A stretch of 64,000 bases of DNA from IMG/VR virus record IMGVR_UViG_3300028840_008186, positions 1 through 64,000 of that record; one strand, given 5' to 3'. The notes below the pieces were generated by a model. The model saw nothing but the letters and a program-made list of their open reading frames with translations, was not told where the DNA came from and did not search any database. This document shows positions 37,324-63,907 of the stretch, in pieces (the first letter of the stretch is position 1; every line of letters starts with the position of its first letter). The stretch is from a virus. The position numbers were made by a program, and so were the translations under genes.

Positions 37324-37436
37324 CCTACTTCCTTTTGTGGTTCGAGTCTGCAGAACAGTATGTACCTGGGAAGGTGTAAGACTCTACTAGGACTATGTAC
37401 ATACCTGTGGGGTCAATACTCTGTGTGCACAGAATT

Positions 37437-37468
37437 TTGCGGTGGGTACCCCTGGCCTAGAGTAAGAA
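37437..37468 (+). promoter_or_regulatory. Degenerate copy of early promoter/operator repeat
   Basis: GGGTACCC-TGG-TAG-GTAAG positions match the repeats at 38887, 40797 and 45426. The inverted arms are TACCC and GAGTA (one mismatch). It lies 120 bases before the first early gene. Assignment is weaker than for the other three copies. Confidence 0.35.
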
Positions 37469-37585
37469 GGCGGAAAAACTCTTTAGAGAAGGGGGGTCGG
37501 ATTCTAAGGCTAAAACCTCCCGGACGGTACCGCCTCCCGGACGGGTAAAACCTAAAACCTAGTACTTAAGAAGGGAGAGAGAAAA

Positions 37586-38134
37586 ATGAGTAAAGGTAAA
37601 AGCGAGAAGGTAGAGAAGGTAGCGAAGGTCGGAGCGGGTAACGAAGCTTTAATCGAAGAGGCTAAAAGCCTAGGAGTTAAGGTAGACGCCCTACTTAGGG
37701 CGGGATTACTCGAAGAGGCGCGCGAGAAAATCGAGAGGGAAAAGACTCTAGCGAAGGCTAAGGAAGCCGCCCTAATCGTCGGTCGGTCGGCGAATCGATT
37801 CGCCCTATTTTATCGAAAGATAGGGGAGTCGCTAAAGGCGGGGCGTCTCCCGTCGGGAGTAGAGGATCGCGAGTATACCTTCGGTATACTCGGGCTTTAC
37901 CCGAAAGAGGGACGCGGGGGAGGAGTAAGTGACTGGGCTAATAAGGGCGCTTCTAAAGGAAACGCGCTATTCGCCGAAATCGTCCGGACCGGAAACGCCG
38001 AGGCCTTTCTAAAGGCCTACGATAAGGTCCGGACGGGCGAAGCGACCGAAGGGGTAAAAACCGGGATCGATTACCTAAAGGGATTCGCCCCCGAGATCCG
38101 TAAAGCCCTAGGATTCGCCCCCGAGAGTAAATAA
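37586..38134 (+). CDS. TG/CA-depleted Lys-rich protein, paralogue of 40931 gene
   Basis: A 182-residue basic protein of unknown function. Coding DNA contains no CA dinucleotide and only three TGs (one in ATG), so the protein has no His, Gln or Cys, one Trp and only the initiator Met. Leu is written CTA, TTA or CTT and Val never GTG. It is paralogous to the 40931-41365 protein: RAGLLEEAREKI matches EAGLLDEAANKI and GRGGGVSDWANKG matches GEGGGSSDWGHKA. RBS AAGGGAGAGA before ATG. First gene of the early strand, followed by a 10-bp hairpin. Probably imported from a genome with different composition. Confidence 0.85.
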   Translation: MSKGKSEKVEKVAKVGAGNEALIEEAKSLGVKVDALLRAGLLEEAREKIEREKTLAKAKEAALIVGRSANRFALFYRKIGESLKAGRLPSGVEDREYTFGILGLYPKEGRGGGVSDWANKGASKGNALFAEIVRTGNAEAFLKAYDKVRTGEATEGVKTGIDYLKGFAPEIRKALGFAPESK

Positions 38135-38146
38135 TAAACCTTAACC

Positions 38147-38169
38147 GGGAGGGGCGCTTCGCCCCTCCC
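38147..38169 (+). terminator. Hairpin after first early gene
   Basis: Perfect 10-bp stem GGGAGGGGCG/CGCCCCTCCC with a CTT loop. No T tract follows, so it may be a leaky terminator, RNA stabiliser or attenuator just before the RBS of the next small gene. Confidence 0.5.
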
Positions 38170-38192
38170 CTACTACGAAGGAGGTCTGGAAA

Positions 38193-38351
38193 ATGGAATT
38201 AGTAGAACTTTTTGAAAGGTACGAATTTCCTAAGGACGAATGCTTCGGATTAGCCGACGACGAATTGGAGAACTATTACCTTCGGACCGAACGGGAAAAT
38301 ACCGGTCTGAAGATAGTGGAGCTCGATTATCCTAACGTAACCTGGGCTTAG
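38193..38351 (+). CDS. Small acidic protein, unknown
   Basis: A 52-residue acidic protein (MELVELFERYEFPKDE start, DYPNVTWA end) with a strong RBS, GAAGGAGGTCTGGAAA, directly before ATG and a strong terminator after its stop. Its DNA contains no CA dinucleotide, continuing the anomaly of the preceding gene, but TG is present. Family not recognised. Confidence 0.65.
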   Translation: MELVELFERYEFPKDECFGLADDELENYYLRTERENTGLKIVELDYPNVTWA

Positions 38352-38361
38352 AACCTGAAAA

Positions 38362-38384
38362 GACCCCTCCCGTAGGGAGGGGTC
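38362..38384 (+). terminator. Rho-independent terminator
   Basis: Perfect 10-bp stem GACCCCTCCC/GGGAGGGGTC with a GTA loop, AAAA before and ATTT after, 10 bases beyond a stop codon. It closes the first early unit and may work in both directions. Confidence 0.75.
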
Positions 38385-38885
38385 ATTTCCCCAGCCACCC
38401 AGGCCCACTTTTCTGTCCAGCTCACGGATATTTCTGGGAACAAATCGGTAGACTCACTTTTGTGGTTTGAGTGATGGCGGATACGCAAATCCTGAACTGT
38501 TCGCTGCAGTCCACTTTTCTGGTCTGAATAAAACAACTCTATTCCACTTTTCTGAACCCTGCTTGCCTCACTCACTAAAGTGGGTGCTGAGGAACACTTT
38601 TTCTTAGGAACACTTTCTTGAACTGGGTGTGCTGCAAGGTTGATGGCATGACGCAGAAGCCCTGAGCAATGGGTTCTGAAACTTGGTTGATGGCTGGCAA
38701 AATCAACACGCGCATACCCATAACGCAGGAACACCAATACACTTACCCACCTACATACCCCACCTTAGCCCCAGTGCTTTCCTAGTCTACACACTTTCCA
38801 GAGTACCACCACTCTTCAGCCTAATAGCAATTAGGTACTCATACATACACTCCCCTAATTTATTCCGTACCACTACGAATATTTC
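38385..38885. repeat. Iteron-bearing non-coding region, candidate origin
   Basis: About 650 bases without a convincing gene. It contains CCACTTTTCTG at 38405, 38511 and 38544, a variant CACTTTTGTGG at 38455, an inverted copy AAAGTGG at 38577, GGAACACTTT at 38591 and 38607, and GGTTGATGGC at 38638 and 38685. From about 38710 to 38880 the plus strand is C/A/T-rich and very poor in G. Repeats plus strand asymmetry suggest a replication origin or regulatory site; no initiator gene is identified. Confidence 0.45.
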
Positions 38886-38886
38886 C

Positions 38887-38918
38887 CTTTATGGGGTACC
38901 CGGTGGTTAGGGTAAGCT
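38887..38918 (+). promoter_or_regulatory. Early promoter/operator repeat, copy 1
   Basis: CTTTATGGGG-TACCC-GGTGGTTA-GGGTA-AGCT. The first 28 bases are identical to the copy at 40797. TACCC (38897-38901) and GGGTA (38910-38914) form an inverted repeat with 8-base spacer, and the -10 position reads TAAGCT. It precedes the 39032 gene. Confidence 0.6.
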
Positions 38919-38930
38919 AGGCGTTACCTA

Positions 38931-38950
38931 TCGGCTCCTAGGGGAGCCGA
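38931..38950 (+). promoter_or_regulatory. Leader hairpin
   Basis: Perfect 8-bp stem TCGGCTCC/GGAGCCGA with a four-base loop in the 5' leader just after the promoter repeat. It could stabilise the transcript or act as an attenuator. Confidence 0.4.
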
Positions 38951-39031
38951 CTAGCGCACTTTAATCTAATTCAGAAAGGAGGTGAATATTCGGTTTTGAA
39001 TAAATCTCTAACTCAAAAGGAGGAAAGAACA

Positions 39032-40796: not shown

Positions 40797-40828
40797 CTTT
40801 ATGGGGTACCCGGTGGTTAGGGTATAAT
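40797..40828 (+). promoter_or_regulatory. Early promoter/operator repeat, copy 2
   Basis: CTTTATGGGG-TACCC-GGTGGTTA-GGGTA-TAAT, with a consensus -10 TATAAT at 40823-40828. Arms TACCC (40807-40811) and GGGTA (40820-40824). There is no TTGACA-like -35; the conserved TTTATGG lies at that distance instead. Confidence 0.7.
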
Positions 40829-40930
40829 ATACCTAAATCGTTAGAAAACGACCGGCTCAAGGAGAAAGGAGGTGAGATAGTGAAGGGAGCCAACAACAAA
40901 CTCAATCCAAACGGAAAGGAGAATGAGAAG

Positions 40931-41365
40931 ATGGGAAAGAAAAAGATAGTCAGGAATGCAGGACAACACAAGGTTGAAGATCTCCGCGCCCAAGCAGCCG
41001 AAGCTGGTGTGGATATCTCCAAGCTGGTAGAGGCGGGATTGCTCGATGAGGCTGCGAACAAGATCGATCAGAGCGAAAAGCTCAAAGCAGCCGAAGCCAA
41101 GAAGACCGGCAAAGCCATTCCCAAAAACCGCTGGGAACGGTTGTGGACCAAGATCGATAGGGAGATCAAGGATCTCGGCGTTGAGGATTGCGAGATTCTG
41201 ATGGCGATGAAATATCTCACCCTGAAAGAGGGTGAGGGCGGCGGTTCCAGCGATTGGGGCCACAAAGCGGGGCTGAAAGCTGCCCTGCTCGCATATAGGC
41301 ACGCCCCTGAATGCCTGTCCAAGGCGCACAAAGCGAAGATCAAGGAGATGATCAAAGACGCTTAG
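40931..41365 (+). CDS. Lys-rich protein, paralogue of 37586 gene
   Basis: A 144-residue basic protein. AGLLDEAANKI and EGEGGGSSDWGHKA match the first early protein, but this gene has ordinary TG and CA content. The ATG at 40931 has AAGGAG nine bases upstream; a GTG at 40880 behind AAAGGAGGTGA is also in frame and would add 17 Asn/Lys-rich residues. First gene after promoter copy 2. Function unknown; small, basic and promoter-proximal would fit an abundant nucleic-acid-binding protein. Confidence 0.75.
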   Translation: MGKKKIVRNAGQHKVEDLRAQAAEAGVDISKLVEAGLLDEAANKIDQSEKLKAAEAKKTGKAIPKNRWERLWTKIDREIKDLGVEDCEILMAMKYLTLKEGEGGGSSDWGHKAGLKAALLAYRHAPECLSKAHKAKIKEMIKDA

Positions 41366-45425: not shown

Positions 45426-45457
45426 CTTTATGTAGTACCCGGTGTTTCGGGTATACT
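45426..45457 (+). promoter_or_regulatory. Early promoter/operator repeat, copy 3
   Basis: CTTTATGTAG-TACCCG-GTGTTT-CGGGTA-TACT. The inverted arms extend to six bases here (45436-45441 and 45448-45453) and the -10 is TATACT (45452-45457). Differences from copies 1 and 2 keep or extend the inverted repeat, which suggests that it is selected. Confidence 0.7.
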
Positions 45458-45574
45458 TCGCGTATATCGTAACCGAAGGGGCGGAGCTGTGATCCTACCT
45501 TGAAAGGAGGTGATAGCCGATATCCGATTATTCCAACTGCAATCTTTTCAATCTTTTCAGAAGGAGGACAAATC

Positions 45575-56416: not shown

Positions 56417-56457
56417 CTAACATACCAGGATGGATAGAGTTTCAAAGAAGGGGTGCC

Positions 56458-56496
56458 GTTATATATAACTTGTTATATATAACTACGCGCGTAGTT
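56458..56496 (+). repeat. Overlapping perfect palindromes
   Basis: GTTATATATAAC occurs twice (56458-56469, 56472-56483); the second overlaps by three bases a 16-bp palindrome AACTACGCGCGTAGTT (56481-56496). Another GCGCGC-rich stretch follows. Perfect dyads of this size between replication genes could be protein-binding sites or an origin; the region has no gene. Confidence 0.65.
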
Positions 56497-56530
56497 CTTA
56501 TTACGCGCGCCCGAGCGCCTCAGCGCGTGC

Positions 56531-56572
56531 AGGATACCCTTATCCCACCCCTAAAGGGGTGGGGGGTATCCT
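56531..56572 (+). terminator. Large two-part hairpin
   Basis: AGGATACCC (56531-56539) pairs with GGGTATCCT (56564-56572) and CCCACCCC (56544-56551) with GGGGTGGG (56556-56563), giving 9 + 8 bp with a TTAT bulge and TAAA loop. No T tract after it. Terminator, attenuator or origin structure in the primase-to-56615 gap. Confidence 0.65.
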
Positions 56573-56614
56573 CACCCCTTTGGGTTGCAAGAGTAGGTTT
56601 TGAAGGAGGTTTTT

Positions 56615-59751: not shown

Positions 59752-60197
59752 TGGGACGTTGGAAAAGTATACCTGGATACCCTGGCTATTGGGCTTCGGC
59801 CCAAGGTCAGGTTCTAGGTAAAAAGGGCGGAGTTCTCAAGCCGAAGCTTAAGAAATATGCATATGTTGATTTGTATAGGAACAACAAGAGGGCGCGTAGG
59901 CCCATCCACCAATTGGTACTGGAGGTTTTCGGACCTCCTAGGCCTTCTCCTAACCACTTCCCGAATCACAAAGATGGTAACAAATTGAATAATAGTATTT
60001 CTAATCTTGAATGGCTCACTCCTAAAGAGAATATGAGACACGCTGTGAAAACTGGTCTGTTCGTTATCCCATCCGGTCCCAAGAATCATTGGCATGGAAA
60101 GGCTCAGTCCGCTTCTCATATTCTAAAAAGATCAGAAGCCATGAGAGGTAAGAAAAACCATCAGTATAAACATGGGAGGTATTCTGCTTATGAGTAA
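59751..60197 (+). CDS. HNH homing endonuclease with NUMOD4 domain
   Basis: A 148-residue HNH nuclease. NUMOD4 motif WKSIPGYPGYWASAQGQVLG starts at residue 4. The HNH core includes RRPIHQLV (His 53), NHKDGNKLNN at 72-81 and NLEWLT at 85-90. Such enzymes are free-standing homing endonucleases that copy themselves into cognate sites. ATG at 59751 shares a base with the previous stop. Its insertion between the accessory gene and the radical SAM gene is seamless. Confidence 0.88.
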   Translation: MGRWKSIPGYPGYWASAQGQVLGKKGGVLKPKLKKYAYVDLYRNNKRARRPIHQLVLEVFGPPRPSPNHFPNHKDGNKLNNSISNLEWLTPKENMRHAVKTGLFVIPSGPKNHWHGKAQSASHILKRSEAMRGKKNHQYKHGRYSAYE

Positions 60198-61269
60198 GCA
60201 TGGTTTATCAGTGCGTGGTGATTGTTTATACTGCCCGCTTCCCCTCTCCATAGACCCATACAACAACTGCCTCGTAGACTGCCACCATTGTTATATGAGG
60301 CGGTTGAATCATGTATGGGGCAAAGAACTCAAGCCGTTGGATCCAGAAGCTTTGAGAAAGAAGCTCACCAACGGCTTGAAAAACAAGAATCCCAAATCCT
60401 CGATGGCCAACTGTCTCGCCAGAAAGAAAACTATACGGATTGGCAACAAGGCTGATGGCTTCCAACCGATCGAGGACGATCTGCATATCACGGCCCAAGT
60501 GATACAGATCTTGGAAGAACTGGAGTGGAGTTATGTTATCCAAACAAGATTCCTATCAAGAGTCTGGGAATTTGGCTCCGACTATCGAGACGCCCTCTCT
60601 CCAAGAAACGCCGTTATTCTTCCGATTATTAGTCCTGGCCTTGAGATGGACTGGGAGATCCTCGAGAGAAGAAGAACGGATCCGCCAAGGGTTAGACTGC
60701 GGATCCTCAAAGAGTTTCGAGAGCGCGGATTCCACGGCGGCGTCAATGGAGAGCCTTTCATTCCTGGGTATCATACGGTGCAGGATTTCGAGGACACGCT
60801 CAAAACGCTCAGGGACTATGGGATCGACCGGTACAACACATACAACTTACACTTGAATGATTACGTTCTGAAACGACTAAACGATATCAATTTGGATATC
60901 GAGAAGATTTGGACCATGAATCAGGACAAGAATTGGAAGCCGATCCAACAGCAGCTTTGCGATCTTGCGAAAAAACATAATATCATACTGGGCTGTCCCG
61001 ACTTTGTAAACACCGGACCTGACTGGAAGGAGGAGGCTAATACTTGTTGCGGCATAGACGTTCCGAATCCAAGCCGATTTAATACCCATTACTTCAAGAA
61101 GACTATGCAGGCCGGAGTCAAGGCCCCTAACGCTGTACTAACGCAGCATTGGGAGGGTATCGGGGAGTTTGAGGAGGCCTTGAAGATAGTCCAAGGGAAA
61201 CGATCCGATATGTATACAATGGCTGATGCTGGATTGGTTAAGAAGCCCAAGAAAGGATTGATAGTATAA
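60190..61269 (+). CDS. Radical SAM enzyme (SplB-like type)
   Basis: A 359-residue protein. Cluster motif C-x3-C-x2-C at Cys 27, 31 and 34 (NCLVDCHHCYMRR) binds a 4Fe-4S cluster, in the arrangement seen in spore-photoproduct-lyase-type radical SAM enzymes. The body follows a TIM-barrel pattern, and CCGIDVPNP near residue 285 is a possible second cysteine site. It could modify DNA bases or a small molecule. ATG at 60190 follows GGGAGG by ten bases. Its stop overlaps the next ATG by one base. Confidence 0.8.
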   Translation: MSKHGLSVRGDCLYCPLPLSIDPYNNCLVDCHHCYMRRLNHVWGKELKPLDPEALRKKLTNGLKNKNPKSSMANCLARKKTIRIGNKADGFQPIEDDLHITAQVIQILEELEWSYVIQTRFLSRVWEFGSDYRDALSPRNAVILPIISPGLEMDWEILERRRTDPPRVRLRILKEFRERGFHGGVNGEPFIPGYHTVQDFEDTLKTLRDYGIDRYNTYNLHLNDYVLKRLNDINLDIEKIWTMNQDKNWKPIQQQLCDLAKKHNIILGCPDFVNTGPDWKEEANTCCGIDVPNPSRFNTHYFKKTMQAGVKAPNAVLTQHWEGIGEFEEALKIVQGKRSDMYTMADAGLVKKPKKGLIV

Positions 61270-61439
61270 TGGAAACGTATTGGGAACAAGTACAGCAGTT
61301 GCATGATCAATTAACCCACGTTGCTATTTCTTGCTTAGGCAAGGATCCCTTCGATCGGGACAAAGCCAAGTTTACTATAGCGGTCCTCGATGGACCAATG
61401 GAAGGAGAAATTGTCACTGTTGAAATGAGGATAGTATGA
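61269..61439 (+). CDS. Small protein between radical SAM and methyltransferase genes
   Basis: A 56-residue protein (ETYWEQVQQLHDQLTHVAIS start) beginning in TAATG overlap with the radical SAM stop and ending in ATGA overlap with the methyltransferase start. This double coupling supports a real gene although there is no clear RBS. Function unknown; perhaps a subunit of one of its neighbours. Confidence 0.5.
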   Translation: METYWEQVQQLHDQLTHVAISCLGKDPFDRDKAKFTIAVLDGPMEGEIVTVEMRIV

Positions 61440-62143
61440 AAACAAATACGATATTAGCTGGAGACGCTCAGATGATGAGCGAGGATTACATACCTGACGG
61501 TTCGATTGACTTTGTTTTGACGTCTCCTCCGTATGATGGTGCGAACACTCCGAAGGGCGCTGCTCCGAACTTATACCAGTACGGCTTTGAGTTGAGTCGG
61601 GTGTTGAAAGATGGGGGTGTTTGCGTCTTGGTCATACAGGACATAGTCCACAACGGCATCAAGCGCGGCCACTCCATTCGAATCCCGTCCTATTGGATAG
61701 ATCACACCAAGCTAAATCTTTGGGACGATTATATCTATTGGCGCGGAGGGCAGGAGGGGTATTGGTGGAAGAATCGGATCCGCAAAGACCACGACTATAT
61801 GTGGATCTTCGTCAACAATGCGAACAAACCTAAAACCTTCAACAAGATCCGCTACTCCAATCAGGGCTCTATCTTTGATTACCGAACCGAGAAGCGGAAG
61901 ACCAATTTGAGGCGTCACAAAAAAGAGAAAGGCAAGCTATACCCGGTTGCGTTTCCTTTCCAGTTGGCTGAGGATATGATCCGGATCTTCACCAAAAAGG
62001 ATGACTTGGTACTAGATCCTTTTTGCGGGTACGGAACGACTCTCGCCGCAGCGAAGGTTTTGAATAGACGGTACTTGGGAATAGAACTGTTGGAGCACGT
62101 AGCATCGATCGCTACCAAGCACCTGGAGGCTGGATTACTATGA
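61436..62143 (+). CDS. DNA methyltransferase (N4-cytosine/N6-adenine type)
   Basis: A 235-residue beta-class amino-methyltransferase. The catalytic motif IV is TSPPY at 29-33, which is the form most often found in N4-cytosine enzymes; SAM motif I is DPFCGYGTT near 195-203, at the C-terminal end as in permuted members. No target recognition domain beyond the centre (70-180). It may protect phage DNA from restriction. Overlaps neighbours by four bases on each side. Confidence 0.88.
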   Translation: MKTNTILAGDAQMMSEDYIPDGSIDFVLTSPPYDGANTPKGAAPNLYQYGFELSRVLKDGGVCVLVIQDIVHNGIKRGHSIRIPSYWIDHTKLNLWDDYIYWRGGQEGYWWKNRIRKDHDYMWIFVNNANKPKTFNKIRYSNQGSIFDYRTEKRKTNLRRHKKEKGKLYPVAFPFQLAEDMIRIFTKKDDLVLDPFCGYGTTLAAAKVLNRRYLGIELLEHVASIATKHLEAGLL

Positions 62144-62961
62144 GTTTAGGACTGAGAAAAACTCCTCGGCTCTTGGACCAATGGAAATCCCTCGCCAATA
62201 TAATAAACAATCCTGTTGAGTATTGGGATTTCCCTACCACAATGCTCGCCTTTGCTAAATCTTTGAAGAACTCTCAGCTTTTGCTTATGGAAGGCGGCGT
62301 TGTGTTCAGGATAAGGGGAAAGCAAGCGACATTGATCAATTGGTTCGGGGAAGAGGAGGATATGCGAGCAGCGGTATTTGCTCTTCAATCTCAAGATATC
62401 AAAGTGAAAAGCCTTAATTGGGAGAAGACTATGTTCTTCCCGGACAAGGGAGCGAAGGTCAAAGAATTCATTGTCTATGGCTTATATGACTTTGATCTTT
62501 CTACACAATGCCACTCGAGCAAGACCCGTGAAACTTTGAGGAGGAAGCACCGCCAGGGCAAGAAACGGTACACCGTAGGACATAAGCTGCCAGCTAGAGA
62601 GAAGATGGATGAACTATTTGCTAAATGGGCTGAGGAAGCCAGCAAGCGTCATTTTATGGTTGTTAAAGGACATTACCAAGCCTATATCGATCTACTTTAC
62701 AAAGGCTTTGCTAGCTGTATTTGCTTTTGGGAAGGCGAGGAACTGATAGGCATATGCGGTTACGAGGTTTTCGGCAGCTGTGCGCAAATAACTTTGATGA
62801 AGAATCGAAAGGCGCACAGTTGTTTCCCAGTTTACTTTTGGGTTGCGTCTGTAGAGACTATATCCCGGCACTATAACAAAGTATTTTGCGGATCAACCGC
62901 CGAGGGGCTCAAGCAACAGTTAGGTTTCCTGCCTTATGATACCTATAAGTTGAAGCTTTAG
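62140..62961 (+). CDS. GNAT/FemAB-like acyltransferase
   Basis: A 273-residue protein. The C-terminal half (ELIGICGYEVFGSCAQITLM and PVYFWVASVETI) has the GNAT fold layout as in FemAB or DUF2156-like transferases; RRKHRQGKKR near 130 recalls aminoacyl/acyl-CoA binding motifs. In phages, GNAT proteins near methyltransferase genes can acylate modified bases, but peptide or polyamine acceptors are equally possible. ATG overlaps the upstream stop by four bases. Confidence 0.65.
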   Translation: MSLGLRKTPRLLDQWKSLANIINNPVEYWDFPTTMLAFAKSLKNSQLLLMEGGVVFRIRGKQATLINWFGEEEDMRAAVFALQSQDIKVKSLNWEKTMFFPDKGAKVKEFIVYGLYDFDLSTQCHSSKTRETLRRKHRQGKKRYTVGHKLPAREKMDELFAKWAEEASKRHFMVVKGHYQAYIDLLYKGFASCICFWEGEELIGICGYEVFGSCAQITLMKNRKAHSCFPVYFWVASVETISRHYNKVFCGSTAEGLKQQLGFLPYDTYKLKL

Positions 62962-62981
62962 TATTTTTATCCTTAAAAATA
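62962..62981 (+). terminator. AT-rich hairpin after acyltransferase gene
   Basis: TATTTTTA/TAAAAATA (8 bp) with TCCT loop immediately after the stop codon. Confidence 0.4.
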
Positions 62982-63008
62982 AATATTTCCTTTATTAAAA
63001 ACCATTTT

Positions 63009-63039
63009 ATAGCCCTAGTTCAAGTCGGATTAGGGCTAT
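63009..63039 (+). terminator. Terminator-like hairpin
   Basis: ATAGCCCTA/TAGGGCTAT (9 bp) with 13-base loop followed by ATTT, in the 100-base gap before the PLP enzyme gene. It probably separates transcription units, in part. Confidence 0.5.
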
Positions 63040-63064
63040 ATTTATGGGCGGAAGGAGGGCCGGG

Positions 63065-63907
63065 ATGACGATTCGATTGATACCAAATACTCCAGTGGAG
63101 GAGTATACCGTTAAAGGGCAAACGGTTTTAGTCAAAAGGGAAGATCGCGCTACACCTTATCCCGGTCCTCCATTTTCTAAAGTACGGGGGTTGGTGCCCT
63201 ACCTATGGGATTTAAAAGAGTTGGGATTCACAACCATAGGCTACGTGGAAACCTCTGTCTCTATGGCCGGATGGGGAGTCGCGTGGGCGTGCTATCACCT
63301 CGGCCTCGAGTGCATTTTATGGGACCCTCAATACGAGAAGACGCCACCGCTGCTTCGCTACCATCGGAAACAATGGAAGAAGTTCAACCCTAAGATTCTA
63401 CCGATTAAGGCAGGGATGGCAGCGGTAAACTATAATATAGCAGCTAAAGAGGTTCGCAAGACACCGGATTGTTTCTTGCTTCCGCTCGGATTGCCTCTCC
63501 CTTATACCGTAATGGAAACTGCTAAGATCGCCCGGGAGACGTGGAATAGCAATGTATTTCGTACCGTAGTAACATCGGTCGGTAGTGGTACAATATGTGC
63601 GGGACTCTTGAAAGGACTCCCTGGAGATGTTAAGATATTCGGAGTAATGACCAGAACCGGTTCATCAAAACACAAAGCAAAAACGATCCATAAAAAAGCA
63701 CACATCCCTATCGGCGGTTTTTTAGGGAACAAAAACCTGAGTGTAGTAGATCCGGGATGGAGATATGCTGACCGAAGCTCTTGGCCGTGTCCTTTCCCAT
63801 GCCACCCTTGGTATGATCGGAAGGCGTGGCAATGGTTAGACCAATGGATGGGGATGCAGCAAATGGATGGGCCAGTAATGTTTTGGAATATCGGGAGGGT
63901 GCGATGA
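63065..63907 (+). CDS. PLP-dependent enzyme, fold type II
   Basis: A 280-residue protein with the tryptophan-synthase-beta/ACC-deaminase-like layout. VKREDRATPYPGPPFSKVRG holds the likely PLP lysine (Lys 39 in SKVRG), and SVGSGTICAGL at 171-181 is the phosphate-binding loop. It is shorter than cysteine synthase (about 310) and lacks some substrate motifs. Phages carry such genes in clusters that modify thymidine, which would fit the radical SAM and acyltransferase neighbours; this remains an inference. ATG at 63065 follows GGAGG by six bases. Confidence 0.75.
   Translation: MTIRLIPNTPVEEYTVKGQTVLVKREDRATPYPGPPFSKVRGLVPYLWDLKELGFTTIGYVETSVSMAGWGVAWACYHLGLECILWDPQYEKTPPLLRYHRKQWKKFNPKILPIKAGMAAVNYNIAAKEVRKTPDCFLLPLGLPLPYTVMETAKIARETWNSNVFRTVVTSVGSGTICAGLLKGLPGDVKIFGVMTRTGSSKHKAKTIHKKAHIPIGGFLGNKNLSVVDPGWRYADRSSWPCPFPCHPWYDRKAWQWLDQWMGMQQMDGPVMFWNIGRVR

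Follow-up and report, generated by a model that had tools for sequence, protein, structure and literature searches.

A single rightward transcription unit in this phage genome lacks one double-stranded dinucleotide step, and we consider it rather probable that this step is the phage's own DNA hypermodification site, of which the unit has been kept clear. The window analyzed here is the whole stretch of 64,000 nucleotides at positions 1 to 64,000 of IMG/VR virus record IMGVR_UViG_3300028840_008186; coordinates beyond 64,000 are those of the full 92,221-base record. The plus strand has no CA, and hence the template strand no TG, throughout 37432..38383, and a core at 37456..38186 is nearly free of TG as well. 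Because TG and CA are one step of double-stranded DNA, a single cause covers both depletions, and a TpG-specific DNA modification was therefore sought. Judging from sequence, thymidine hypermodification in this phage probably takes place in a 5'-TpG-3' context on either strand; since TG on one strand is CA on the other, DNA without both would carry no modified base.

The initial annotation of this DNA had reported the absence of CA over these 952 bases and the near absence of TG between about 37456 and 38185, and recounting bears out both. The last CA before the island lies at 37430 and the next at 38384, the second-longest CA gap in the entire 92,221-base record is 118, and TG within 37456..38186 is found only at 37587 (the ATG start codon), 37930 and 37934, the latter two in AGTGACTGG, which encodes Ser-Asp-Trp. 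Template-strand TpG (coding-strand CA) is zero across the whole unit and coding-strand TG, which reappears at 38187, is near zero only to 38186; some non-template TG is present in the promoter and in the second gene. In the rest of the window the TG/CA dinucleotide occurs about 3,700-4,000 times. Contig IMGVR_UViG_3300017960_000086 is an independent assembly of the same DNA and holds the island without differences, which excludes an assembly artefact.

Sampling of synonymous codons at genome usage gave 16.6 ± 3.4 CA and 29.6 ± 4.0 TG for the first gene (gene 1), and the observed 0 and 3 were reached in none of 20,000 draws. When the synonymous codons within the gene were shuffled, the means were 10.5 CA and 12.9 TG and the observed values were again never reached, so dinucleotides across codon boundaries are avoided too. 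The depletion thus outlasts the codon null that the initial annotation had proposed, and the island is explained by neither codon usage nor protein composition. The bias extends into the protein as described there, its 182 amino acids including no His, Gln or Cys, one Met and one Trp. The second gene (gene 2) has 0 CA (P = 0.037) and its TG is halved (7 observed against 13.5 expected; P = 0.003).

CG and TA, which the annotation had called common, are both enriched in the island (odds 1.31 and 1.40, respectively), which disfavours mutational decay and RNA hydrolysis. Being the transition products of CA and TG, these two dinucleotides could also be read as the trace of regional hypermutation or biased repair, whether by CpA deamination as in fungal RIP or by adenine deamination. 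C-to-T change at CpA would lower GC, however, and GC is raised (55% in gene 1 against 47% in the genome). Such a process would have had to convert every site in 952 bases and to stop at sharp functional borders, the reading frame and the Ser-Asp-Trp motif are intact, and the two assemblies show no variation inside the island; we regard this origin as barely credible.

The CA-free stretch corresponds to one unit made up of a promoter, a 182-aa gene, a 52-aa gene and a terminator, located where leftward structural genes and rightward early genes diverge, with no CA between about the -35 of its putative promoter and the base of the terminator hairpin. The putative promoter (37436..37472, plus strand) reads GGGTACCC-N11-TAAGAA and appears to be a divergent relative of the promoters at 38887, 40797 and 45426, whose spacing it shares and to whose class motif it has 11 mismatches overall; we infer the promoter, the start site and the time of expression of the unit. 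The 5' leader (37473..37585, plus strand) has 0 CA and 0 TG, where 8.8 and 5.2, respectively, are expected for 37466-37585. Leader, gene 1 and the hairpin between the genes are all but devoid of TG on both strands, down to the stop codon and the ribosome-binding site, which is AAGGGAGAGAG and not the TG-containing GGAGGTGA frequent in this phage. Gene 1 (37586..38134, plus strand, stop TAA) encodes a small, net basic protein that is predicted with low confidence to be mostly helical (pLDDT 52, too low for a fold search) and that had no match in Pfam, PHROG and PDB sequence searches. It is followed by a perfect 10-bp hairpin, GGGAGGGGCG-CTT-CGCCCCTCCC (38147..38169, plus strand), and the strict TG/CA-free core stops 17 bases later. 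Gene 2 (38193..38351, plus strand) has a weak match to PHROG 25707 (E = 0.005), a family with no assigned function. The putative terminator (38357..38389, plus strand) is the hairpin GACCCCTCCC-GTA-GGGAGGGGTC followed by ATTTCC; its 3' foot carries the first CA, at 38384, and its plus-strand tail failed a strict terminator scan.

A CA-free stretch that fits a transcript, with stricter avoidance of one RNA-strand dinucleotide, is also what would be left by selection on RNA, if a host or phage ribonuclease (a toxin or defence effector) cut CA and UG and the early transcript had become resistant. The annotation had offered an RNA-cleaving enzyme as one explanation, and on the present evidence we hold it to be distinctly unlikely. 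The enzyme would have to cut at CA and UG yet spare UA (odds 1.40) and CG, and we know of none that does so; the symmetry of double-stranded DNA is the simpler account. The CA-free DNA reaches some 30 bases upstream of the predicted start site, and the genome-wide effect at TG palindromes described below would be left unexplained. RNA structure is ordinary as well: a special structure of gene 1 was considered and rejected, as its z of -2.1 falls within the range of 17 control windows (+1.2 to -6.6).

Three early promoters of the GTACCC class, at 38887..38957, 40797..40858 and 45426..45488 (all plus strand), are followed by TG/CA-free runs of 53, 44 and 45 bases, respectively; the chance of such a run of at least 40 bases from a random start is about 0.1%. 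The longest TG/CA-free runs of control phages likewise lie between genes. Because intergenic runs are also enriched there, the sister promoters lend little weight to an exempt unit, and the proposal that promoters are generally TG/CA-free in this phage was weakened by the same comparison.

A paralogue of gene 1 at 40880..41365 (plus strand; 37-38% identity over about 110 aa) has the ordinary TG/CA content that the initial annotation had ascribed to it, its protein holding four His, three Gln, two Cys, three Trp and six Met. The annotation had also suggested transfer from a genome under selection against TG/CA, and the higher GC of gene 1 and its want of a close homologue elsewhere would suit such a gain: among phages, plasmids, and viral and genome contigs, no homologue of gene 1 or gene 2 was found beyond the identical contig, and a search for the motif E-G-x-G-G-G-x-S-D-W returned the same phage plus chance matches only. 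A donor is missing too, and we know of no genome that avoids TG/CA throughout. Against a foreign source, this phage itself carries a paralogue of the gene and promoters of the same class, the CA-free part ends at the terminator and not at a recombination edge, and the two independent assemblies agree, so we consider transfer very unlikely.

The 500 bases between the terminator and the next promoter (38384-38886) are CA/TG-rich with CCACTTTTCTG repeats and may be a replication origin. A cluster of intergenic palindromes (TTATATATAA, twice, and ACTACGCGCGTAGT) lies with a GC-rich hairpin at 56430-56600. Two near-identical intergenic elements of about 80 bases, TTTTTATCCTTAAAAATAAA.ATTTCCTTTATTAAAAACCATTTTATAGCCCTAGTTCAAG...CTAGGGCTA, each with a hairpin and each preceding a gene (62964-63040 and, in the record, 76898-76980), are possibly a middle promoter or an RNA element.

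Candidate enzymes for a DNA modification are encoded at 60-72 kb of the record; the four given below with window coordinates lie on the plus strand. A PLP-dependent enzyme (63044..63907) is homologous to gp52 of phage M6, which acts in thymidine hypermodification (36% identity, E = 8e-45), and in a collection of named phages its relatives are confined almost wholly to M6/YuA-type hypermodified-thymidine phages. Two radical-SAM proteins are distant relatives of M6 gp53 (E-values of 2e-5 and 2e-3 in a small search), of which the first (60172..61269) is kept in nearly all contigs of the family. An N6/N4 DNA methyltransferase (61436..62143; E = 1.3e-31) and a GNAT/FemX-like protein (62140..62961) lie between it and the PLP enzyme; the latter protein has a weak Acetyltransf_6 match (E = 0.026) and is a possible transferase of the cassette. 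The 60-72 kb region of the record also encodes a dCMP deaminase, a FemX/LPG-synthase-like protein and a thymidylate-synthase homologue with the PPC motif and a uracil-type Asn (..RSWDLWSGFPANLGG..), a sequence that fits a synthase or a hydroxymethylase alike. At 71083-72312 of the record a uracil-DNA glycosylase domain is fused to a 3'-5' exonuclease domain, an arrangement conserved in the radical-SAM family, and the adjoining PolA is without its own exonuclease domain. A sulfotransferase-family protein at 87854-88549 of the record is also present in a few relatives.

With the second radical-SAM protein as query, 27 uncultured phage contigs were found with the same replication and radical-SAM block. 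The recurrent block (60172-63907 and record 64020-72312) comprises the two radical-SAM proteins, an optional PLP enzyme, the FemX-like protein, a clamp, the UDG-exonuclease and PolA. The 5hmU DNA kinase families (PF18748 HMUDK_HMUD1 and PF18723 HMUDK_hel) had no match at E ≤ 10 in the 92-kb record, which is possibly incomplete, and a profile search for the amino acid:DNA transferase family (PF18724) found none in this genome; as positive controls, the kinase models match M6 gp54/gp55 and PF18724 matches M6 gp51. Across 26 related records two 5hmU-kinase/ADDT families were searched and neither was found (PF18723 in 0 of 26). Since the known kinase and transferase families are missing, the chemistry should differ from the M6 pathway as known, and the block common to the 27 contigs is a candidate for a new thymidine-hypermodification pathway.

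If TpG is modified, palindromes containing TG/CA should be shielded from restriction and others purged. Each hexamer palindrome was given a score relative to its Markov expectation, and within GC classes the palindromes containing TG/CA were compared with the rest by permutation, in a test devised post hoc, after the data had been seen. In this phage and its relatives hexamer palindromes fall short of expectation, except those that hold TG/CA. In this genome the GC-stratified permutation gave a TG/CA effect of +0.73 log2 (p = 0.0045), which for this genome alone is moderate and is exceeded by an AT effect when unstratified. Eight genomes with the same radical-SAM cassette, whose members are not fully independent, gave a combined p of 1.3e-10, six phages of the M6/ViI/phiW-14 type (M6, ViI, MW2, Epa5, phiW-14 and SH-Ab 15599) 4.1e-12, and seven controls (lambda, D3, F116, T7 and three uncultured phages) 0.24. 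TG-free palindromes stand at about 0.35 of expected counts in M6 and YuA. Palindromes with TC/GA or AC/GT showed no such effect in the radical-SAM family, and SP-15, which carries a different modification, showed no TG effect; among three further phages with an ADDT-like gene, RHph_I65 and Tonitrus were without it and CaiB had only a trend. The signature thus picks out TG in M6, YuA, MW2, ViI, phiW-14 and the family of this phage, not in controls, and TpG-directed protection of this phage's DNA is likely. From sequence alone, it can reveal the dinucleotide context of a DNA modification that has yet to be identified.

Selection on the island itself would stem from obstruction of RNA polymerase by modified T in the template. 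Published work puts the targets of 5hmdU DNA kinase at TG and TC (PMC6449724, PMC7653180). On templates with phosphorylated 5hmU, transcription by E. coli RNA polymerase was 37% of that on unmodified DNA and 10% of that on 5hmU DNA (PMC6457204), and for T7 polymerase bulky or charged uracils inhibit in the template strand and are tolerated in the non-template strand (PMC11550810). The strand bias of the island runs in the expected direction, with template TpG at 0 over 952 bases and some non-template TG: a total lack of TpG in the template strand between promoter and terminator is consistent with a polymerase block on modified template, and the near absence of TG from the opposite strand of gene 1 with selection that acts more strongly on the first gene. 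Host RNA polymerase in its unmodified state could copy a unit of this kind from modified virion DNA with no loss of efficiency, or, with a different timing, the unit could be read whenever modification silences other promoters. Its small proteins would probably act first or be needed throughout, possibly by helping the polymerase use the rest of the modified genome. Of this account, we infer the chemistry, the polymerase block in this host, when the unit is expressed and what its proteins do; the depletion with its borders and strand difference, the enzyme set and the palindrome signature of TG protection are observed. The annotation's idea of a nuclease or modification system with this site thus survives in part, TG/CA being supported as a modification site; the modification is apparently the phage's own, with the island exempt from it, and not the property of a donor.

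The same TpG modification could shape the island by another route, were gene 1 to encode a protein that blocks a modification-dependent host enzyme (a Type IV nuclease or a glycosylase), its site-free unit surviving and being expressed before the genome is destroyed. Such a role would cover the depletion on both strands, suits a unit that stands at the start of the early region, and draws on the TG-protection signature, which supports modified TpG. It does not predict a total lack of template TG across gene 2 and the terminator alongside a return of coding TG at 38187, and cuts elsewhere would still ruin the genome; we judge it unlikely. Returning to relief of a transcription block, a more far-reaching version is possible, and we put it forward tentatively: TpG-directed hypermodification made without the known kinase or transferase would silence the phage's own DNA, an exempt unit would have been purged down to its amino acids, modification would serve as an expression switch, and the exempt gene product would let polymerase read modified DNA.

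No comparable island was found in 13 phages with known or predicted hypermodified T, about 26 relatives and 80 TS-homologue loci; many of these sequences, the relatives in particular, are fragments that lack the early region. Apparent islands in five of the contigs (L059, L100, L181, L212 and L245) and in SP-15 were rejected, by eye or by profile, as simple repeats or non-coding oddities. This counts against an exempt unit, for which a general need would give more cases. For the reading to hold, either other phages would have to deal with the problem differently or the adduct of this phage would have to be unusually obstructive.

In a phage with heavily modified DNA the first genes have to be transcribed by host RNA polymerase from fully modified virion DNA, a problem seldom stated. 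If the reading holds, a unit rewritten to the amino-acid level would be direct evolutionary evidence that modification costs transcription, and the exempt unit would point to a gene that overcomes the block. To our knowledge, the removal of a dinucleotide from just one transcription unit, amino acids included, in an otherwise normal genome has not been described before, and a literature search found no published description of such a TG/CA-free island. Avoidance of endoribonuclease sites of the MazF/ACA type also yields transcripts without a short motif, and the island resembles it in this; here both CA and UG are avoided and UA is common, for which DNA symmetry is simpler. Phage restriction-site avoidance is alike in that a short double-stranded motif is purged by selection, whereas the island is limited to one unit, is strand-biased, and concerns a dinucleotide abundant in the rest of the window. 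The 5hmU-derived hypermodification of M6/YuA, ViI and phiW-14 (at TpG/TpC) shares with this phage the TG context (PMC6449724, PMC7653180), a homologous PLP enzyme, radical-SAM proteins and palindrome relief at TG/CA. This phage differs from M6, ViI and phiW-14 in being without a recognisable 5hmU kinase and amino acid:DNA transferase and in having extra FemX-like proteins and a second radical-SAM protein, and none of those checked has a TG/CA-free unit. T7 gene 0.3 (Ocr), an antirestriction gene, is likewise a small gene heading the early region, and both may act before the rest of the genome is usable. None of the searches made showed gene 1 to be homologous to Ocr, and its product is net basic, unlike DNA mimics; in contrast to Ocr, the gene's own DNA is here purged of one dinucleotide over 0.7-0.95 kb.
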